From Chloroflexales bacterium ZM16-3 (GTDB taxonomy: Bacteria > Chloroflexota > Chloroflexia > Chloroflexales > Chloroflexaceae): DNA of 57,196 nt. The position numbers and the translations under genes were made by a program. Below, one piece after another: positions 32,755 to 44,455 of the stretch. The stretch is from contig RYFE02000036.1 in the NCBI GenBank assembly GCA_004138175.2, positions 1 through 57,196 of the forward strand, given 5' to 3'. Position 1 is the first letter of the stretch; each line of letters starts with the position of its first letter. Below the pieces are notes generated by a model. It was not told the DNA's origin, made no database searches, and saw only the letters and a list, made by a program, of their open reading frames with translations.

Positions 32755-32841
32755 TGTTCAATTCTGTGCCCAGCAGACACATGCTGCACTGATTGTGGTG
32801 CGGCGCGGCATAGCCGCGCCGCACCACAATCAGTTTTTTTA
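32755..32841. terminator. Repeat-borne bidirectional terminator (second copy)
   Basis: CTGATTGTGGTGCGGCGCGG and its complement form a long stem around loop ATA, followed by seven Ts (32834-32840). It is preceded by a GTGCCCAGCAGACAC segment as in the 26885 copy, and lies between the convergent CoA-transferase and M20 genes. Confidence 0.87.
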
Positions 32842-34173
32842 CCCCTTGGCGAAGGCGGCGAGGATCTCGCCGAGCAGCAGCCCGTGGCGGGCCAGGTCGT
32901 CGACGAGGACGTGCTCATCGGGGCCGTGGATTGCGCTGTCGGAGCGGTTGAGGCCGACCGTGGCGTAGGGCACGCCGAGGTGCGCGCCGAGGATGGCGAG
33001 CGGCAGGGTGAGCGGCCCGGCGGGCACGGTGCTGAGGTGCGCGCCATAGATGGCCGCGCCTGCCTCCGACACCTGCTGGACAAAGGGCGTGTCGGGGGGG
33101 GTGTAGGCGGGCGGGTAGCCGCCGGGCATGCGCTCAAGGGCGACATCGGAGAAGCCGCTCTCGGCCAGGTGGGCCTTGAGCATGCCAAGGATCTCCTCGG
33201 GCTGCTGGTTCGGCACCAGCTGAAAGTCGAGGATGGCCGTGGCCGAGGCCGGCACCAGCGCCACGTCGCCGGATGGGTCGCAGGTGATCGCGCTCAGGTT
33301 GCAGGTGGGCAGCGTCGACTCGGCGCGCACCAGGGCCGCGCCGCTCATGCCGAAGAGAAACTCTTTGCTCTGCCAGGCCCGCAGGCGCCCCGGCTCATCA
33401 ATAGTGATCTGGCGCAGCTGGGCGTTCTCGGCGCGGGTCGGCCCCTCGACGTTGTCGTAGAACCCGGCGATCCGAATGTCCTCATCGTCGCCTTTGATGC
33501 AGCCCAGCGCCCAGGCGATCCGCCAGAGCGGGTTGCGCAGGATCGAGGCCATGCCAGAGGGCAGCGGGTAGGAACCGCCCCGGGCGTGCAGGCGCACCTG
33601 GAGGAAGCCCTTGACCCCGCTGTAGCAGAGCGGCGCGCCCTGCCCGTCGCGCTCGCCCTGGCTAGCCAGGCACGCGTCGGCGCGGACAAGGTCGGCGTGA
33701 GAGATCAGCGTCTCGGCCAGATGCTGGCTGCCGCTCATCCCGTGGCCCTCGGCGATGATGCTCACGCCGCAGGGCAGATCGCCCTCGGCGACCAGGATGG
33801 CCTGGATGGCCTGGATATGGGCCGCCAGAGGGCCTTTCCCCGCCACAACGCCGCGCGCGTAGAGCGCCCCATTCCGCTCGGCGAGCTGAAACGGCTCGTG
33901 TGACCACTCGCGCCAGGGGCCGGGCGGCGCGGTGTCGTAGTGGTGGTAGAGCAGCAGGGTGCGATCAGATCGCCCGACGAGGTGGGCGACCACTACCGGC
34001 GCGCCGAGCGTGGGCACGACCCGCACAGACATCCCGATGCTGCGCAGTTGTCCGGCGACCACCTCGGCACCCGCTCGCAGGTCGGCAATCTGGCCGGTGC
34101 CAGTGGGCTGGGCGCAGAGGGCGCTCAGGCACTGGGCCAGCTTCTCGGTCATCGGCAGAGATGGAGCAGACAC
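32839..34173 (-). CDS. M20 metallopeptidase-family protein with lost active site
   Basis: A 444-residue M20 dipeptidase-like protein (dimerisation domain included). The first ligand pair is kept (LLLYHHYDTAPP, His78/Asp80) and so is the last His (IHGPDEHV). The bridging Asp motif GVSDDKG is replaced by GVVAGKG (residues 108-114). The catalytic/ligand Glu pair of EGEEEVGS is replaced by EGHGMSGS (142-149), and the following acidic ligand by Ser (ACLASQG). It is therefore probably catalytically dead towards peptides, perhaps a binding protein. Placement next to a peptide importer, divergently, may reflect a peptide-related role. Confidence 0.85.
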   Translation of the reverse strand: MSAPSLPMTEKLAQCLSALCAQPTGTGQIADLRAGAEVVAGQLRSIGMSVRVVPTLGAPVVVAHLVGRSDRTLLLYHHYDTAPPGPWREWSHEPFQLAERNGALYARGVVAGKGPLAAHIQAIQAILVAEGDLPCGVSIIAEGHGMSGSQHLAETLISHADLVRADACLASQGERDGQGAPLCYSGVKGFLQVRLHARGGSYPLPSGMASILRNPLWRIAWALGCIKGDDEDIRIAGFYDNVEGPTRAENAQLRQITIDEPGRLRAWQSKEFLFGMSGAALVRAESTLPTCNLSAITCDPSGDVALVPASATAILDFQLVPNQQPEEILGMLKAHLAESGFSDVALERMPGGYPPAYTPPDTPFVQQVSEAGAAIYGAHLSTVPAGPLTLPLAILGAHLGVPYATVGLNRSDSAIHGPDEHVLVDDLARHGLLLGEILAAFAKG

Positions 34174-34703: not shown

Positions 34704-36680
34704 ATGACGATGAGTACGTTCTCCAAGCGCTCGATCGCCGGGCTCATGCTACTGGGCATGATCATCCCCGCCCTGGCCGCCTGCGGCGGCGCGCCCGCCG
34801 CCGCCCCGATTAAAGAGACCGTGGTTGTGGTGCAGACTGCCCCGCCAGAGGTGCAGACCGTTGTGGTCGCCCCAACGGCTGATGCGAATGCAACCGCCGC
34901 CCCCGAGGCGACGGCTGAGCCGACTGTCAGCGAGGCATTCTCCACGCCGCACCCCATCCTGGGCGACGTGAAGGTGCGCCAGGCGATCGCCTACTGCTCC
35001 AACCGCCCCGAGATGATCGCCTCGGTCTACCCCTTCCTCAGCACCGAGGAGCAGGCGAGCCTGCTGATGGACACCAATGTGCCGAAGGGCCACTGGGCTG
35101 AGGCCACCGATGGTATCACCACCTACCCCTTCGACGCCGAGAAGGGCATGGCCCTCTTGGATGAGGCCGGATGGAAGGATGATGGCAGCGGCGTGCGGGC
35201 CAACGAGGCCGGCGACCCGCTCTCGCTGAGCTTCACCACCACCAACGCCCAGTTCCGCCAGACATGGTCGGCTGTCTTCATCCAGCAGATGGCCGCCTGC
35301 GGCATCCAGATCATCCCCACCTACGCCCCCGCCTCCTGGTGGTTCGGCAACAGCACTGGCCTGCGCCACCGTGACTTCGAGCTTGGCGCCTACGCCTGGG
35401 TGGGCGAGCCTGACCCCAAGGGGCAGACGCTCTACGCCTGCAACCAGATCCCGCTGCCCTCGAACGGCTGGGAGGGCCAGAACTACATGGGCTGGTGCAA
35501 TGAGAAGGCCAGCCAGGCCATTCTCGCCGCCAATAACACCCTCGACCGTGCGGAGCGGATCAAGCAGTACGCGATCTTCGAGCAGGAGTTCACCAAGGAT
35601 ATGGTGAGCCTGCCGCTCTTCAACCGCACCGAGGCTGCGGCTGCCAGCAATAACGTCGAGGGCTTCAAGCCGAACGCCACCGAGTACTACACCGCCAATA
35701 TCGGCGAGTGGAAGCTTAAGAGCGGCGACACGGTGGTGCTGGGCTTCACCCAGGAGCCGTCCAGCCTCTGGGGGACGATCGAGAGCTCGGCCTCGCAGCG
35801 CATCCCGGCGTTCCTGATCAGCAGCGTGTCGTTCACCAAGTACGACTACGACTACCAGGCCGTCGATCTTAAGCAGCTGCCCAAACTGGACAACGGCGGC
35901 GCCACCAACACCGACATTGAGGTGAAGGCCGGCGACAAGGTCTGGAACACCGACGGTGAGCCTGTTGATCTGGCCCCCGGCGTCAAGGTTGTCAACGCCG
36001 CAGGCGAGACCGTGACCTACGAGAGCGGCACCGTGACGATGAAGCAGCTTGCAGTGACCTTCGAGTACAACGAGGGCATCAAGTGGGAGGACGGACAGCC
36101 GCTGGTGAAGGCCGACTTCGAGCTTGCCAACAAGATCGACTGCGACCCCGAGTCGGGCGCCCAGGACTACACCATCTGCAAGTCGACAGCTAAGGTCGAC
36201 TTCCTGAGCGACACGAGCTACACCGTCACCTATCTGCCGGGCGTGCAGTGGCCCGAGTACTTCATCTACGCGATCGGTGCCTACCCCGCGCACCAGGTGT
36301 TGAGCGACGGGCGCAAGCTGGCCGACGTGCCGGCCAAGGAGTGGCAGACCCTGACCGAGATCACCGAGAAGCCCCTGAGCACCGGCCCCTACGTCATCGA
36401 TAGCTGGGTCAAGGGCCAGAGCATGACCTTCTCGGCCAACCCGAACTACTACAAGGGCGCGCCGGCGATCAGTAAGGTCGTCATCAAGTTCATCGCCGAC
36501 ACCAACCAGGCCGTGGCCCAGCTGCTCACCGGCGAGGTGGACGTGCTCGGCAACGAGACCCTGGGCGGCGGGGCTGAGGTGCAGCAGGTGCTTGAGGCTG
36601 CCAAGAAGGGCGACTTGCAGGCGTTCACTATCGCCAGCCCGACCTGGGAGCACATCGACATGAACATGTTCGTGAAGTAA
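34704..36680 (+). CDS. Peptide/oligopeptide ABC transporter lipoprotein, circularly permuted SBP
   Basis: A 658-residue substrate-binding lipoprotein (lipobox LAAC, Cys27) with a Pro/Ala/Thr linker (28-80). The DppA/OppA-type (SBP_bac_5) domain has its halves in swapped order. Residues 86-335 carry the normally C-terminal motifs (LGDVKVRQAIAYCSNRPEMI, FDAEKGMALLDEAGW, the final lobe). Residues 340-658 carry the normally N-terminal ones (GDTVVLGFTQEPSSL, IKWEDGQPLVKADFELA near 459, STGPYVIDSWVKGQ near 559). The protein stops at HIDMNMFVK, which ordinarily precedes the DVKVRQA block. Only one domain's worth of sequence is present, so this is permutation and not duplication. Permeases and ATPases follow. 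Confidence 0.92.
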   Translation: MTMSTFSKRSIAGLMLLGMIIPALAACGGAPAAAPIKETVVVVQTAPPEVQTVVVAPTADANATAAPEATAEPTVSEAFSTPHPILGDVKVRQAIAYCSNRPEMIASVYPFLSTEEQASLLMDTNVPKGHWAEATDGITTYPFDAEKGMALLDEAGWKDDGSGVRANEAGDPLSLSFTTTNAQFRQTWSAVFIQQMAACGIQIIPTYAPASWWFGNSTGLRHRDFELGAYAWVGEPDPKGQTLYACNQIPLPSNGWEGQNYMGWCNEKASQAILAANNTLDRAERIKQYAIFEQEFTKDMVSLPLFNRTEAAAASNNVEGFKPNATEYYTANIGEWKLKSGDTVVLGFTQEPSSLWGTIESSASQRIPAFLISSVSFTKYDYDYQAVDLKQLPKLDNGGATNTDIEVKAGDKVWNTDGEPVDLAPGVKVVNAAGETVTYESGTVTMKQLAVTFEYNEGIKWEDGQPLVKADFELANKIDCDPESGAQDYTICKSTAKVDFLSDTSYTVTYLPGVQWPEYFIYAIGAYPAHQVLSDGRKLADVPAKEWQTLTEITEKPLSTGPYVIDSWVKGQSMTFSANPNYYKGAPAISKVVIKFIADTNQAVAQLLTGEVDVLGNETLGGGAEVQQVLEAAKKGDLQAFTIASPTWEHIDMNMFVK

Positions 36681-36805: not shown

Positions 36806-37999
36806 ATGGCTGCATTTTTAGTTCGTAGATTACTCCAGATGTTTCTCGTGACGATCGTGGCCGCGATCTGCTCCTACAGCCTGCTCTATATCTCCCCAGG
36901 CGGGCCAATTGAAACGCTGCTCGCCGAGAAACAGAACGGCGGCGCAAACCGCATCGATCAGTCAGATATTCAGCGCGTGATCGAGCGCTTTGAGCTTGAT
37001 ATTAACCTGCCGATCCGCTTCTCACGCTGGCTGATCGGCTGGCCAAATGGCCCGATCTTCGGCAGCTTCGGCGCCGACTGGGTGGTTGGCTGCACAACCC
37101 CTGGCAAGGTGCGGCTGCGCTACCCCGACGGTCGCACCGAGATCGTCGAGGAGGGCTGCGAGAACACCCTCACGCTGGCCGAGCTTGAGGGCCGCAAGGC
37201 CAGCCGAGGCGTGGCCTTCGGCGACTTTGGCGAGAGCCAGGTGATCCTACGCGGGCGGCCTGTCACCGACCTGATCGGCTCGCGCCTGTTCTACACGCTC
37301 TACCTGATGGGCGGCGCGGTCGGGCTGGCCCTGCTGATCGGCGTGCCGATCGGGGTCTACTCGGCGGTTAAGCAGTACTCGCGCTTCGACTACACCATGA
37401 CGTCGATCGCCTTCGTGGGCTCGTCGCTGCCCAGCTTTGTCTTCGGCATCTTCGCCATTCTGATCTTATCGGTTCTGGCCAAGCAGGCTGGCCTGCCCTA
37501 CCTGCCCTCGGGCGACGCGGTGGGCGTCCGCGACTATGTCATCCCGCTGCTCGGCACGATCACGGCTGGATCGTTCTTCGACCGCTTCCTGCGCTTTCTA
37601 ATGCCCTGCGGCGTGCTGACCTTTATCAACATCGCTGGCTGGAGCCGCTTTGTGCGCACGAGCATGCTTGAGGTGCTCAGCCAAGACTATGTGCGCACCG
37701 CGCGGGCCAAGGGCGTCAAGGAGAGCGCCGTGGTGCTCAAGCACGCCCTGCGCAACTCGCTTATCCCCTTCGTTACCCTACTGGCCGGCGTGCTGGCCAC
37801 CCTCTTCGGCGGCGCCCTGATCACCGAGACGGTCTTCAACTGGCCGGGCCTTGGTCGGCTCTATATCGACGCGCTCAGCCGCAGTGACTACAATGTCGCT
37901 AACGCTCTGCTCCTGATCAATGTGGTGCTGCTGCTGATCGGCATCCTGATCACTGATATCCTGTATACGGTTGTCGATCCGCGCATCCGGCTGGGCTAG
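36806..37999 (+). CDS. Peptide ABC transporter permease, DppB/OppB type, with enlarged external loop
   Basis: A 397-residue inner permease: TM1 (about 10-32), a long extracytoplasmic region, then five further helices. The EAA loop that touches the ATPase is TARAKGVKESAVVLKHALRN (about 291-310), and the end is the family-typical LYTVVDPRIRLG. DppB proteins are usually about 310-340 residues. The extra segment is about residues 85-140 (GADWVVGCTTPGKV ... EEGCENTLTLAELEGRKASR), with two Cys that could form a disulphide. It is second in the transporter operon. Confidence 0.93.
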   Translation: MAAFLVRRLLQMFLVTIVAAICSYSLLYISPGGPIETLLAEKQNGGANRIDQSDIQRVIERFELDINLPIRFSRWLIGWPNGPIFGSFGADWVVGCTTPGKVRLRYPDGRTEIVEEGCENTLTLAELEGRKASRGVAFGDFGESQVILRGRPVTDLIGSRLFYTLYLMGGAVGLALLIGVPIGVYSAVKQYSRFDYTMTSIAFVGSSLPSFVFGIFAILILSVLAKQAGLPYLPSGDAVGVRDYVIPLLGTITAGSFFDRFLRFLMPCGVLTFINIAGWSRFVRTSMLEVLSQDYVRTARAKGVKESAVVLKHALRNSLIPFVTLLAGVLATLFGGALITETVFNWPGLGRLYIDALSRSDYNVANALLLINVVLLLIGILITDILYTVVDPRIRLG

Positions 38000-38068
38000 G
38001 TGGGCACCCACAAGGGGGCGCCCCTACGGTACGGGCGCCCCTTGTGGGCGCCCCTTGTGGGTACGGAG
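38000..38068. repeat. GGGGCGCCC palindromic repeat between permease genes
   Basis: GTGGGCACCCACAAGGGGGCGCCCC and CGGGCGCCCCTTGTGGGCGCC-type segments form interleaved hairpins between the two permease genes. The sequence is complex and partly repeated; no gene is present. Confidence 0.7.
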
Positions 38069-38076
38069 AAATACTG

Positions 38077-39069
38077 ATGGCGACCACCACCACAGCTGTC
38101 CCGGCCGACGAGCCGAAGACGACCGCACCGGAGAGCCAGTTGTCGATTGTGCTGCGGCGCTTCCGCAAGCACCACCTGGCGATGTTCTGCCTCGGCCTGC
38201 TCACGGTTATGCTGCTGCTATCGGCCCTGGCTCCAGTGATCGCGCCCTTCCCGCGCGATCAGCTTGACTCGGCCGCCAAGTTTCTCACACCACTCAGCGT
38301 CGATCATGCGGGCAAGCTGCGCATCTTTGGCACCGACCACCTCGGGCGCGACTACACAACCCGCCTGCTCTTCGCCTCGCGCGTCTCGCTGGGCACCGCC
38401 GTCTTCGCAACGCTGATCGCCTCAACCATCGGCATCGTGCTCGGCCTACTGGCAGGCTTCTTCGGCGGCTGGATCGACACGATCATCAGCCGCACCCTGG
38501 AGGTGGTGGCCACCTTCCCCACCCTCTCGCTGCTGCTGATCGTGGTTTCGATCTTCGTCGGCAACGAGAAGAACATCCCCTTCCCCGCCTTCGTCACCAA
38601 AACAATCTCCTTCCTCTTCGCGGTGAGCGAGCGCGAGGCCAAGCTGGTGCTGATGGTCAACCTCATCCTGGCCCTCTTCGGCTGGACGACCACCTGCCGG
38701 CTGATGCGCGGGATGGTGCTCTCGGTGCGCGAGAACGTCTATATCGACTCGGCGCGGGCGCTGGGCGCCTCCAACCTGCGCCTGCTGGCCCGCCACGTCT
38801 TCCCCAACTCGCTGCCGCCGATGATCGTTGACTTCACCCTGGCCGTGAACGGCACCCTGGTGGCCGAGTCGGCCCTCAGCTTCCTCGGCTTCGGCATCAC
38901 CGACCCGACGCCGACCTGGGGCAATATGCTCAACTCCGCCCAGAGCTATATGTTCCAGTACCCCTGGATGCCGCTCATCCCGAGCCTGCCCATCCTGCTG
39001 GCATCTGTGGCGATCAACTATATCGGCGACGGCCTGCGCGACGCCCTCGACCCCCGGCAGAAGATCTAG
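38077..39069 (+). CDS. Peptide ABC transporter permease, DppC/OppC type
   Basis: A 330-residue permease with an N-terminal TM helix (about 40-60), LRIFGTDHLGRDYTTRLLFA (family motif after TM1), an EAA loop SARALGASNLRLLARHVFPN and the C-terminal INYIGDGLRDALDPRQK signature. It pairs with the DppB-type subunit to form the channel. ATG 38077 has GGAGA upstream; an earlier in-frame GTG at 38044 lies in the repeat and is rejected. Confidence 0.94.
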   Translation: MATTTTAVPADEPKTTAPESQLSIVLRRFRKHHLAMFCLGLLTVMLLLSALAPVIAPFPRDQLDSAAKFLTPLSVDHAGKLRIFGTDHLGRDYTTRLLFASRVSLGTAVFATLIASTIGIVLGLLAGFFGGWIDTIISRTLEVVATFPTLSLLLIVVSIFVGNEKNIPFPAFVTKTISFLFAVSEREAKLVLMVNLILALFGWTTTCRLMRGMVLSVRENVYIDSARALGASNLRLLARHVFPNSLPPMIVDFTLAVNGTLVAESALSFLGFGITDPTPTWGNMLNSAQSYMFQYPWMPLIPSLPILLASVAINYIGDGLRDALDPRQKI

Positions 39070-39361: not shown

Positions 39362-40384
<1,023 letters not shown>

Positions 40385-40457: not shown

Positions 40458-41456
40458 ATGGCTGCGCCAAAGCTCGACACTGCGGGCGAGAGCCTGCTTG
40501 AGGTGAGCAACCTCAAAAAATATTTCCCGATCAAGGGCGGCATCATGCGCCGCACCGTGGCCACGGTGAAGGCTGTGGACGGCGTTAGCTTTAAGGTGCG
40601 CCGGGGCGAGACGCTGGGCCTGGTGGGCGAGAGCGGCTGCGGCAAGACCACCACCGGCCGCACGATTCTGCGCCTGGAGCAGGCCACCGCCGGCGAGGTA
40701 CTCTTCGAGGGCAAGGACGTGCTCAAGGCTGGCGGCCGCCAGATGAAGGCGCTGCGCCGCGATATGCAGATTGTCTTCCAGGACCCCTACGCCTCGCTGG
40801 ACCCGCGCATCACCGTGGGAGAGAGCGTGGCCGAGGGCCTGGTCATCCACGGCATCGGCACGCCCAAGGATCGCCAGGAGCGCGTGCGCGAGGTGCTGGC
40901 CAAGGTGGGCATGCACGCCAGCCAGGTCAACCGCTTCCCCCACGAGTTCTCCGGCGGCCAGCGCCAGCGCATCGGCATCGCCCGCGCCCTGATCATGGAG
41001 CCGAAGCTGATCGTCTGCGACGAGCCGGTCAGCGCCCTGGATGTGTCCATCCAGTCGCAGGTGCTCAACCTGCTCAAGAACCTCCAGCGCGAGTTTGGCC
41101 TGACCTACCTGTTCATCGCCCACAACCTCAGCGTGGTCGAGCATATCTCCGACCGGGTGGGCGTGATGTACCTGGGCAAGATGGTCGAGCTGGCGAGCCG
41201 CGAGGATCTGTTCCGCGAGCCGCTGCACCCGTATACCAAGGCGCTGATCTCGGCCATCCCCAACCCCGACCCGACGGCGCGGCGCGAGCGGATCGTGCTC
41301 CAGGGCGATGTGCCCAGCCCGATCAACCCGCCCAGCGGCTGCCGCTTTCACCCGCGCTGCTGGATCGCCCGCGCGGTGTGCAAGGAGGAGGAGCCGCCCT
41401 TCGAGGAGAAGCGCAAGGGCCACTGGGCGGCCTGCCACTTCGCCGGTCAGTTTTGA
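40458..41456 (+). CDS. Peptide ABC transporter ATPase, OppF/DppF type
   Basis: A 332-residue ATPase with [13 protein letters not shown] start motif typical of OppF, Walker [63 protein letters not shown] and the C-terminal [15 protein letters not shown] cluster. It closes the five-gene peptide importer operon (lipoprotein, B, C, D, F order). GGAGG lies upstream of the ATG. Confidence 0.95.
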
Positions 41457-42220: not shown

Positions 42221-44191
42221 TCATTCGAGATTGACGTACTCTTGCTTAACCAAAGCATCCTCAGAGACACCGGCGATGGTGAGGAGCTCGCCGATCAGGG
42301 CGGCACGCCGCTCAGCGTCGCGGCTGCTCCAGGTGCGGCTTTTGATCTCCATGTAGAGGTCGGGCTGCACCCCACGTCCGAGGGTGTCGAAGTTCACCGC
42401 GAAGTCGTGGTCCTTGTAGATGATCCGCCAGCGGCGGCGGCGCTTCTCGCGCTCCACCACCTGGTCGGGCTGGAAGTACTCGCGGTAGAAGCGCACAGTG
42501 TGGTCTGCCGGGGCGGTGTAGCGCGCCCGCGAGAGCACAATCGCCGAGGGCAAGTCGCCGCGCACTCCCTCGGCGATCAGGGTGATCGTGTACTTGGGCT
42601 GCGGGCGGGCGCCGGGGTCGGTGCGATGATCCTCGCGGATGCGGATGCGCTCGCCGTTGGCGAAGAGGAAGTAGGTGTCGTACTGGGTGCGCTCGCTGGC
42701 CTTGGTGATCCGCACGTCGGGGGAGCCGAGCAGGCGGGCGATGGCCGATTCGGCGCCGGAGTCCATGCGGCCCTTAGCTTGGATCTCGAAGATCTCGTCC
42801 TGCTGCACGCCGCCGATGGCCAGGATCTTGGCGAGCAGGTTGCGCTCGCGCCCGGCCAGGAAGGCGTTGATCCGCTCCGCGATGCCCTGCGAGCGCTGCA
42901 GGATATCGGCCTCGTCCAGGCTCAGCAGGCACCGGTCGCGCACCAGGAGTCGCCCGTCCACCAGCACATCGCGCACATCGGCGGCGCGCGCGCCGTAGAC
43001 TAGGTGCGAGTAGATCGCGTCGGGGCTGTAGGTGTAGCGCGGCGCGCTGTGGGGCAGGCCCAGCGTCACCACGGCGATGTCGGCGCGCTTGCCTGGCACT
43101 AGCGAGCCCACCAGGTGGTCCATGTGAATGGCGCGGGCGCCCCAGCATGTGGCCAGGGCGAACGCCTCGCGGGCCGGCACCGCCGTCGGGTCGCCCGAGA
43201 CGCCCTTGGGCAGCAGGGCGGCCAGCTGGATCTCGGTGAACATGTCCTGGTCGTCGTTCGAGGCCGGGCCATCGGTGCCGAGTCCGACCTTCACCCCCGA
43301 GTCGATCAGGCGCTTGTAGGGGGCCACGCCGCTGGCCAGCTTGAGGTTGCTGGTGGGGCAGGGCACCGCGCCCGCGCCGGCCTCGCGCAGCAGGCGCATG
43401 TCGTCCTCAGTGGCGTGGACGCAGTGGGCGGCGATACAGGGCACGTCGAAGGCGCCCACGCGCTTGGCGTAGCGGATGGGCGTCACCTCACGCTCGGCGA
43501 TGCTCTCGTCCACCTCGCGGCCCGTCTCCGAGAGGTGCGTCACCAGGGGCACGCCATACTCGGCGCAGAGGGCCGACGCCTCGCGGTAGATCTGGTCGGT
43601 GCATGTGTAGGGCGCGTGCGGGGCCACGGTGGGCACGATCCGCTCGTGGCCGCGCCACTGCTCCAGAAAGCGCCGCGAGCGATCCAGCCCCTCATCGAAC
43701 GAGGGGGCGTCAGGGGTGGGCAGGCGCATCACCGTCTGCCCGCAGATCGCGCGCATGCCAGCCTGGTCGGCCGCGCGGGCCACCTGCTCCTCGAAGTAGT
43801 ACATGTCCACAAAGGTCGTCGTTCCGCCGCGCAGCATCTCGGCGCACGAGAGCAGCGTGCCCACATACACAAACTCCGCGTCCACAAACTGGCTCTCCAC
43901 GGGGAACATATAGCCAAAGAGCCAGACATCAAGCTGCTGGTCGGCGACCATGCCGCGCAGCAGGCTCATGGGCACGTGGGCATGGCCATTGATCAGGCCG
44001 GGGATGACTGCGCACCCGGCGCAGTCGATCACCTCAGCGGCGACATAGCGCTCGGCCAGGTCGGCGCTCGGCCCCACGGCGACGATCTCGCGGCCGCGCA
44101 CGGCCACCGCCCCGCCGACAATAATCGTCCAGGCGGCGTCCATCGTCACCACGGTGCCGCCTGTCAGCAGCAGGTCGATGTTCTCGGGCAT
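42221..44191 (-). CDS. MTA/SAH deaminase-like amidohydrolase fused to a CYTH domain
   Basis: A 656-residue two-domain protein. Residues about 1-440 are a TIM-barrel amidohydrolase of the 5'-methylthioadenosine/S-adenosylhomocysteine deaminase group: GLINGHAHVPMSLLRG, THLSETGREVDES, AAHCVHATEDDM and GLGTDGPASNDDQDMF hold the metal ligands. About 460-656 look like a CYTH (class IV cyclase/thiamine-triphosphatase) barrel: FEIQAKGRM (EXEXK-like), RIRIREDH, KYTITLIAEG, DLYMEIKSRT and KQEYVNL. ATG 44191 has GGAGG just upstream. The deaminase part probably converts MTA or SAH. The CYTH substrate is unknown. Confidence 0.85.
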   Translation of the reverse strand: MPENIDLLLTGGTVVTMDAAWTIIVGGAVAVRGREIVAVGPSADLAERYVAAEVIDCAGCAVIPGLINGHAHVPMSLLRGMVADQQLDVWLFGYMFPVESQFVDAEFVYVGTLLSCAEMLRGGTTTFVDMYYFEEQVARAADQAGMRAICGQTVMRLPTPDAPSFDEGLDRSRRFLEQWRGHERIVPTVAPHAPYTCTDQIYREASALCAEYGVPLVTHLSETGREVDESIAEREVTPIRYAKRVGAFDVPCIAAHCVHATEDDMRLLREAGAGAVPCPTSNLKLASGVAPYKRLIDSGVKVGLGTDGPASNDDQDMFTEIQLAALLPKGVSGDPTAVPAREAFALATCWGARAIHMDHLVGSLVPGKRADIAVVTLGLPHSAPRYTYSPDAIYSHLVYGARAADVRDVLVDGRLLVRDRCLLSLDEADILQRSQGIAERINAFLAGRERNLLAKILAIGGVQQDEIFEIQAKGRMDSGAESAIARLLGSPDVRITKASERTQYDTYFLFANGERIRIREDHRTDPGARPQPKYTITLIAEGVRGDLPSAIVLSRARYTAPADHTVRFYREYFQPDQVVEREKRRRRWRIIYKDHDFAVNFDTLGRGVQPDLYMEIKSRTWSSRDAERRAALIGELLTIAGVSEDALVKQEYVNLE

Positions 44192-44455
44192 AGCCACCTC
44201 CATCTCTCTGTGTGTGGCCCACATTGTACCAGAGCCGGAGGGAGAAGATCAGGGGTGGCTTGTTGCCATCACCAGCACAAAGTCCTGATCGCCTCACACC
44301 AAGCGTTAAAGTCGCGCCGGAGGGGCGCTCCGCGCCGGTCGTCGGCCTGCGCCGATGCCGGACCCACCCGCGCAGACGGGCGGCTGGCCGCAGGCTCCCG
44401 TGACGCGGCTTCAGCCGCCAGCGACAATGCAACAGAAATGCGTTCGTTCGTACGA
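44192..44455. other. Intergenic region with multi-hairpin repeat copy 2
   Basis: The 5' flank of the deaminase gene, then at 44305-44430 the 130-bp multi-hairpin repeat (plus orientation) seen at 20620. Nothing else recognisable before the promoter at 44456. Confidence 0.75.

Follow-up and report, generated by a model that had tools for sequence, protein, structure and literature searches.

The gene at positions 34704-36680 (+) of the window, by which we mean the whole 57,196-nucleotide stretch of DNA that was analysed, very probably encodes a natural, circularly permuted and lipid-anchored solute-binding protein (SBP) of family 5 (cluster C), which is predicted to serve the OppBCDF transporter encoded directly behind it. 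What is new here is an SBP_bac_5 homologue with a different chain order that is both conserved and recurrent; engineered permuted binding proteins were already known. Our literature search on permutation, with most subscription papers outside its coverage, found no natural circular permutation in the SBP_bac_5 family. Natural circular permutations reveal which chain breaks a fold tolerates. The lobes of family-5 SBPs move about a hinge; in the present protein the new chain ends lie immediately beyond one of the hinge strands, and the protein has persisted in part of the phylum Chloroflexota. Such permutations also allow one to ask whether the position of the lipid anchor affects docking, and whether permease and SBP co-adapt.

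Architecture of the permuted binding protein

The open reading frame starts with ATG and encodes a lipoprotein of 658 amino acids. The order of the motifs and their approximate positions are as given in a preliminary description made from the sequence: a lipobox leading to C27 is followed by HPILGDVKVRQAIAY at residue 83, GDTVVLGFTQEPSSL at 341, WEDGQP at 461, STGPYVIDSW at about 559 and HIDMNMFVK at the C-terminal end. The Pfam profile SBP_bac_5 (PF00496) does not match the protein in a single collinear stretch. As the preliminary description had predicted, it matches as two blocks in reversed order, profile positions 199–358 lying at residues 72–244 and profile positions 8–208 at residues 440–655. 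Both blocks are above the cut-off, the total score is 152.7 bits against a curated cut-off of 32.4 and the E-value for the whole protein is 2e-44. Because of this E-value, and because the same order recurs in 43 of the 400 Chloroflexota genomes searched, the match is not a chance one; since the blocks are reversed, we file the protein as a permuted relative and not as a canonical member of the family. Sequence search of the PDB places residues 275–517 of Bacillus subtilis AppA (1xoc) at query residues 83–337 and residues 80–239 at query residues 449–614. The PF00496 and 1xoc blocks thus occur once each and are swapped, and the structure search described below agrees, which identifies a circular permutation and not a tandem duplication. 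The old termini are joined, the new termini fall inside the old chain and the relatives are built alike.

The signal peptide and lipobox (LAAC, Cys27) occupy residues 1–27 (34704..34784, +), as judged from the sequence and from conservation among homologues. A lipobox Cys is therefore present behind a signal peptide; across an alignment of 63 homologues A26 and C27 reach at least 90% conservation, and a lipobox-like motif is present in 94 of 101 distinct homologues (106 distinct homologues less five incomplete ones). The following Ala/Pro/Thr-rich stretch of residues 28–80 (34785..34943, +) is a flexible linker, recognised by low pLDDT and by its low identity to the nearest homologue, L044 (60%; the two halves reach 84% and 88%). 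The old C-terminal half, comprising domain III (the C-lobe) and the old C-terminus, spans residues 81–338 (34944..35717, +; PF00496 and VIA-align), and the old N-terminal half with domains I and II spans residues 339–658 (35718..36677, +; PF00496 and 1xoc 80–239). Between them the old C- and N-termini are joined in the NIGEWKLKSGDTVVL region, residues 331–345 (35694..35738, +). The ends of the PF00496 and 1xoc half matches put the joint itself at about residues 337–341, in accordance with the join proposed earlier, and its consensus in the 63 homologues is DPTEYYTAN..EW.L.DG.DT.V.GFTQEP.

Predicted structure and position of the cut

The AlphaFold2 model of the permuted SBP, built from the alignment of 63 permuted homologues, has a mean pLDDT of 88.7 and a pTM of 0.82, and its segments with pLDDT below 50 are limited to the signal and the linker (residues 1–7 and 24–72). 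A Foldseek search with this model returns family-5 proteins with E-values down to 9.5e-13. Among the 50 matches listed, no TM-score by query length exceeds 0.31, as would be expected if an alignment in sequence order can reach one half only. VIA-align superposes permuted residues 81–340 on residues 273–520 of 1xoc (Z 24.5, 243 residues, 3.1 Å), and its matches cover about residues 80–340 with Z of 20.4–25.4 among the 50 matches listed; these are matches of the C-lobe half and, the N-lobe half being absent from them, they are uninformative about the N-lobe fold. As a control, the model of the canonical paralogue L010 from the same genome (pLDDT 86.3) aligns end to end, with residues 65–608 on 1–494 of 4oet as the best match (Z 35.7). 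In-order alignment thus reaches the C-lobe half of the permuted protein but the whole chain of the canonical one. Both lobes and both hinge strands of the cluster C fold are present, as seen in the predicted model and, for the N-lobe, by sequence.

Comparison of the two models locates the cut. In the canonical L010 model the helices of the DVKVRQA block (358–361 and 363–372) come only a few residues after the long hinge strand 339–353. In the permuted model hinge strand 1, residues 638–653 (36615..36662, +), is the last element of the chain and has become the C-terminal strand, and the DVKVRQA helix (89–98) is the first element past the linker. The alignment with E. coli DppA breaks between residues 301 and 302 (precursor numbering), which is the cut site, so that models and alignment together support the HLDFN/DVKVRQA junction named in the preliminary description as the place of the new termini. 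Hinge strand 2 was assigned to residues 302–315 (35607..35648, +) by DSSP on the model in comparison with the canonical strand E572-584. According to the model, neither hinge strand is lost: the break in the chain falls immediately behind hinge strand 1, on the C-lobe side, and hinge strand 2 is now the sole covalent crossing from the C-lobe to the N-lobe.

This single covalent crossing between the lobes would suit a working form that is a domain-swapped or head-to-tail oligomer, in which the cut lets the C-lobe pair with the N-lobe of another chain. Engineered permuted constructs of ribose-binding protein with swapped elements are described in PMC10601554, and in genome G191 one paralogue (L133) has kept just the C-lobe with the last hinge strand, to which an extension is added. 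However, the single-chain model is confident outside the signal and linker and contains both hinge strands, and nothing positive was found for an oligomer, which we consider quite improbable.

Because the chain is opened on the C-lobe side of hinge strand 1, the anchor linker would join the C-lobe. The preliminary description had proposed that the anchor moved to a different face of the binding protein and that docking on the permease should change. The model is consistent with the first part, but a changed docking is not implied, the linker being long and disordered. The distance from the Cys to the domain has a median of 45 residues (range 10–69, homologues with a lipobox-like motif), and the linker of the canonical paralogue is similar in length (pLDDT below 50 for residues 21–66, compared with 24–72 in the permuted SBP). 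With a disordered linker about as long as the canonical one, docking need not change.

Distribution, phylogeny and selection

The search for orthologues that had been advised earlier finds the permuted order well beyond the window's genome. The 43 carriers among 400 Chloroflexota genomes (three candidates scored per genome, rows shown) comprise 22 from the window's family, 8 from a second family of the same order and 13 from other families. Two of the carriers (G006 and G286) have the gene broken into two frames, and in another (G370) it contains one stop. Of the 41 genomes of the window's family, 39 have a match with E ≤1e-20. In 32 of the 41 a single place extends from residue 14 or earlier to residue 656 or later, which makes it a permuted, nearly full-length copy; among the rest, several genomes have pieces and some have canonical relatives only. 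Absence of the gene from the congener G035 was considered and rejected, the contig there ending 117 bases upstream of oppB. The genomes of 84,980 species were scanned by six short peptides and the best 80 of 118 relatives were retained. By the titles of their records, Chloroflexota account for 79 of these best 80. Half-profiles applied to the ORFs of 171 loci give the permuted order in 137 rows, the canonical order in 34 and a single half in 19, these row counts including duplicates.

In a tree of both halves, for which the halves of 33 permuted and 38 canonical proteins were rearranged to the canonical order, the permuted SBPs form one clade (100/100) with one change. Permuted rows also form one clade (100/100) in each of the separate half trees (14 permuted and 33 canonical). 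The sister of this clade is uncertain, being the L010 group at 97/92 with both halves and other groups in the half trees.

Two paralogues of genus g4, L136:5535-8000 (-) and L139:5603-8185 (+), carry 157 additional residues past the new C-terminus and are without a lipobox-like motif. In the G191 paralogue, L133:5431-6675 (-), only the C-lobe and the last hinge strand are left, together with an extension that looks similar. The extensions of all three end in YLP or FLP tails.

The distribution bears directly on whether the gene is an assembly artefact, produced by the mis-joining of two neighbouring canonical SBP genes. Tandem canonical SBPs do exist: a pair on a Phyllobacterium plasmid matches the permuted query in one piece, and a single ORF on a Rhizobium plasmid continues from one SBP into its neighbour. 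However, the permuted order occurs in these 43 genomes, in named, independent isolates and in complete chromosomes. Four congeners are 70–84% identical to the permuted SBP over nearly its full length, and dN/dS is below 1 in all five comparisons (about 0.16 for the nearest homologue, L044, with dN 0.097 and dS 0.59; then 0.17, 0.18, 0.39 and, for L016, 0.46), a range which shows constraint and not the strength of that constraint. A mis-join, which the preliminary description had itself named as the finding that would overturn the permutation, is thus already refuted by independent genomes and has practically no chance of being correct.

Origin of the permutation

The natural permuted gene may have originated from tandem SBP copies fused in frame. 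The first copy would then have lost its N-terminal half behind the linker, with the signal peptide and the linker staying in front, and the second copy would have lost its C-terminal half, ending at the hinge. The resulting protein would still operate as a Venus flytrap whose anchor linker joins the C-lobe in place of the N-lobe, and it would pass its ligand to OppBC.

Tandem SBP genes are present in several loci of the phylum and on one plasmid, and no in-frame tandem copies came up in Chloroflexota, in what was not a systematic search. The permuted gene is immediately preceded by a canonical SBP gene in L071, L073, L104, L106, L121 and L146, as well as in L132 and L141 of one genome; in L142, L143 and L145 such a gene stands behind oppF. 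These neighbouring canonical SBPs were rejected as the source, as those on the tree are not sisters of the permuted clade. Plasmid records matching the window protein number 611 (30 examined), and those matching the second permuted SBP described below (CP2) number 3969 (25 examined). Two of the 55 plasmid matches listed (H8 and H12) are one-piece matches across tandem SBP genes, and the other 53 are two-piece matches of less than 60% identity. The single ORF of the Rhizobium plasmid (L173:2404-4818, +) extends beyond one SBP to take in the N-terminal part of the following one; it may be a natural tandem fusion, or it may be an artefact of sequencing error or frameshift.

The permutation could also have joined the halves of two different paralogues and not two copies of one gene. 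On the N-half profile the highest scores (up to 200.9 bits) belong to canonical SBPs other than the L010 group, which scores weakly there (77.7–104.8) but is among the best on the C-half (166.9–190.9). The half trees do place the permuted clade differently, but on weakly supported branches only, and we regard an origin from two paralogues as unlikely; fusion of two copies of one gene is the origin that we prefer.

Operon context and permease partners

The gene order in the window is a divergent M20-family peptidase (32839..34173, -; PF01546), the permuted SBP gene, oppB (36806..37999, +; PF00528 and the tree of OppB) and oppC (38044..39069, +; PF00528, PF12911 and homologues) for the two permease subunits, and oppD (39362..40384, +) and oppF (40458..41456, +) for the two ATPases (both PF00005 and PF08352). 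Most of the oppC homologues shown open with MAT, which makes the ATG at 38077 the more likely start of oppC, judging by this comparison. Further along, a gene at 42221-44224 (-) encodes an amidohydrolase with a weak C-terminal CYTH-domain match below the family cut-off, an unusual combination if real.

This arrangement was followed in 79 loci with a permuted ORF, taken from the best 80 of 118 relatives. In the 70 loci with at least 1.5 kb downstream of the permuted ORF, the first opp gene to follow is oppB in 65, and no OppB is recognised beside the permuted gene in the other five. The order B-C-D-F follows in 51 of the 57 loci with at least 5 kb downstream; the six exceptions are L045 and L102, with B, C and one ATPase, and L068, L069, L070 and L111, without a recognised opp gene. 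The divergent M20 peptidase (51–90% identity) is present in 9 of the loci examined. Adjoining permease and ATPase genes of the Opp/Dpp type are those of a peptide-type ABC importer.

One could suppose that the permuted protein is a sensor or scavenger which merely lies near opp genes and is not a component of transport. Such a role would be in keeping with L136 and L139, which are without a recognised opp gene in the stretch examined, carry no lipobox-like motif and bear an additional C-terminal domain. The constancy of the B-C-D-F order behind genes of the window's group, however, and the grouping of OppB and OppC by their permuted partner (see below) make this supposition very improbable, and a transport component remains our reading.

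Operons L176 (family f2) and L184 (family f4), from the same order and with no permuted gene detected, have a canonical SBP gene ahead of homologous oppBCDF genes; in both, canonical SBP genes stand on both sides of the operon. The OppB proteins of 42 permuted-SBP operons form one clade (100/100) apart from six canonical-linked rows, and the OppC proteins likewise form one clade (100/98) apart from six such rows. In the trees of OppD and OppF the permuted operons are not one clade (four label changes), and the f2 and f4 genes share a clade with Chloroflexales genes of permuted operons (100/98 and 100/97). Our reading of these trees is that permease and SBP were inherited together and the ATPases not; another is that the permeases were replaced.

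Aligned to E. coli DppB, OppB has about 50 additional residues, a Cys pair among them, in its extracellular segment between TM1 and TM2 (37049..37204, +, ends approximate). In the permuted operons this insertion is situated between the scoop region and TM2, directly behind the scoop motif. In PMC12136057 the scoop motif of E. coli DppB (residues 32–62) is reported to occupy the cleft between the DppA lobes. The stretch from PGGP to FG.S measures 99–113 residues in 41 of the 42 permuted operons and 207 in the remaining one, compared with 45–68 residues in five of the six canonical-linked OppBs; the sixth, L177, has a stretch of 105 residues whose sequence is unlike the insertion of the permuted operons. 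At least two Cys are found in this stretch in 91 of 92 distinct OppBs adjoining permuted SBPs, the 92nd being L072. In L072 (2245-3795, +) the extracellular stretch between TM1 and TM2, at 207 residues, is about twice as long as in other permuted operons.

When OppB was searched in 24 genomes without a detected permuted SBP, the insertion was matched only in G035, where the contig end hides the SBP. Among the matches listed, one other, in G391 (L177/L186), covers this part of OppB, and all further ones start at query residue 129 or later. OppB loops with Cys but a different sequence are seen in L186, L192 and L193, from three genomes. The insertion is compatible with a changed interface between SBP and permease, but it is a single evolutionary event, and the OppB beside CP2 has, by eye, none of this kind. 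Its place beside the scoop motif, together with the grouping of OppB and OppC by permuted partner, gives a hint of co-adaptation.

Possible ligand

Peptides appear to be the likeliest ligands of the permuted SBP, and the support for this is weak. The neighbouring M20 peptidase hints at a peptide ligand. R383 and D436, the Arg and Asp that hold the dipeptide in DppA, align with T179 and G234 of the permuted SBP; the pairing of D436 with G234 is uncertain by one or two residues because of a gap, and the adjoining E235 is not conserved. DP is found at positions 237–238 in the permuted rows shown, which have no DppA-type anchors. As R383 and D436 are not conserved, DppA-like dipeptide binding is not supported, and the permuted SBP was not filed as a DppA.

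Relation to known systems

The permuted SBP resembles the family-5 (cluster C) proteins AppA (1xoc), the Thermus thermophilus protein 2d5w, DppA (1dpe) and NikA/NikZ in sequence family and in its lipoprotein form. It shares their fold, for the C-lobe half by structure and for both halves by sequence, and the operon with two permeases and two oligo_HPY ATPases. In contrast to these proteins, its halves are swapped, its termini lie past hinge strand 1 and the old termini are joined by a few residues. The operon layout is that of E. coli DppABCDF (PMC12136057), and the alignment shows the scoop region in the window OppB too. Unlike E. coli DppA and DppB, the window SBP is without equivalents of R383 and D436, and the window OppB is longer by about 50 residues between the scoop region and TM2. 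The permuted ribose-binding protein of PMC10601554 is a laboratory-engineered one. Like it, the window SBP is a binding protein with moved termini, but it is natural, conserved and of another SBP type.

Two further permutations in Chloroflexota

Ten other family-5 genes are present in the window's genome. In nine of them a single stretch matches the profile in canonical order. The tenth encodes another circularly permuted SBP, named CP2 (L217:4292-6109, -, contig C73 of genome G000), in which profile positions 58–366 precede positions 2–53. CP2 is a single lipoprotein of 605 residues with its own oppB and oppC; its OppB shows, by eye, no TM1-TM2 insertion of the kind described above. In comparison with DppA (mature numbering), residues 119–502 lie at query residues 99–476 and residues 35–118 at 517–594. 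The CP2 joint is spanned by one place in 36 of 301 genomes of the phylum, and the swap occurs at about DppA precursor residue 146 in 30 of 30 loci (L225-L254).

Scans of 20 further genomes with the family profile yielded a third permutation, CP3, of 853 residues in genome G045 (L255:4198-6756, -), which is also found in L256, L257 and L258. Its cut lies at about profile positions 146–152 and it has an additional C-terminal domain. Residues 401–587 of PDB entry 7fi3 match CP3 at 130–305, and residues 99–289 at 518–716, the latter weakly (E 0.041). The CP3 joint is spanned in 28 of 301 genomes at 28–100% identity, and CP3 was not found in the window's genome at the threshold of that 301-genome search. 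In the CP3 genes of G359, G177 and G139 the profile finds a single block only, and their order was established from a collinear match to the G045 protein (G177 and G139) or from reading the sequence (G359).

CP2 and CP3 resemble the window SBP in belonging to the same Pfam family and phylum and in having a signal peptide and linker in front. They differ from it in their cuts (at about DppA precursor residue 146, and at about profile 146–152 with the extra C-terminal domain) and, by best matches, belong to other subfamilies. The different cut points and the best matches in different subfamilies suggest separate permutation events. Three differently cut permutations in one phylum raise the question why Chloroflexota tolerate or favour them. 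It is possible, and we put it forward tentatively, that Chloroflexota have permuted family-5 SBPs at least three separate times, at three cut points; that at least one of them, the window's, became tied to a permease pair of its own, in which OppB acquired an extracellular insertion adjacent to the SBP-contacting scoop; and that SBP and permease co-adapted after the anchor changed lobe.

Searches that keep only the best-scoring stretch would pass permuted SBPs off as ordinary ones, and more may therefore be hidden. Reading by eye gives 31 permuted genes in 18 of the 21 genomes that were profile-scanned, a count which is not a rate since several of these genomes were chosen for their hits. The OppC neighbour of CP3 (L255:1662-3005) has, by eye, a large inserted stretch.
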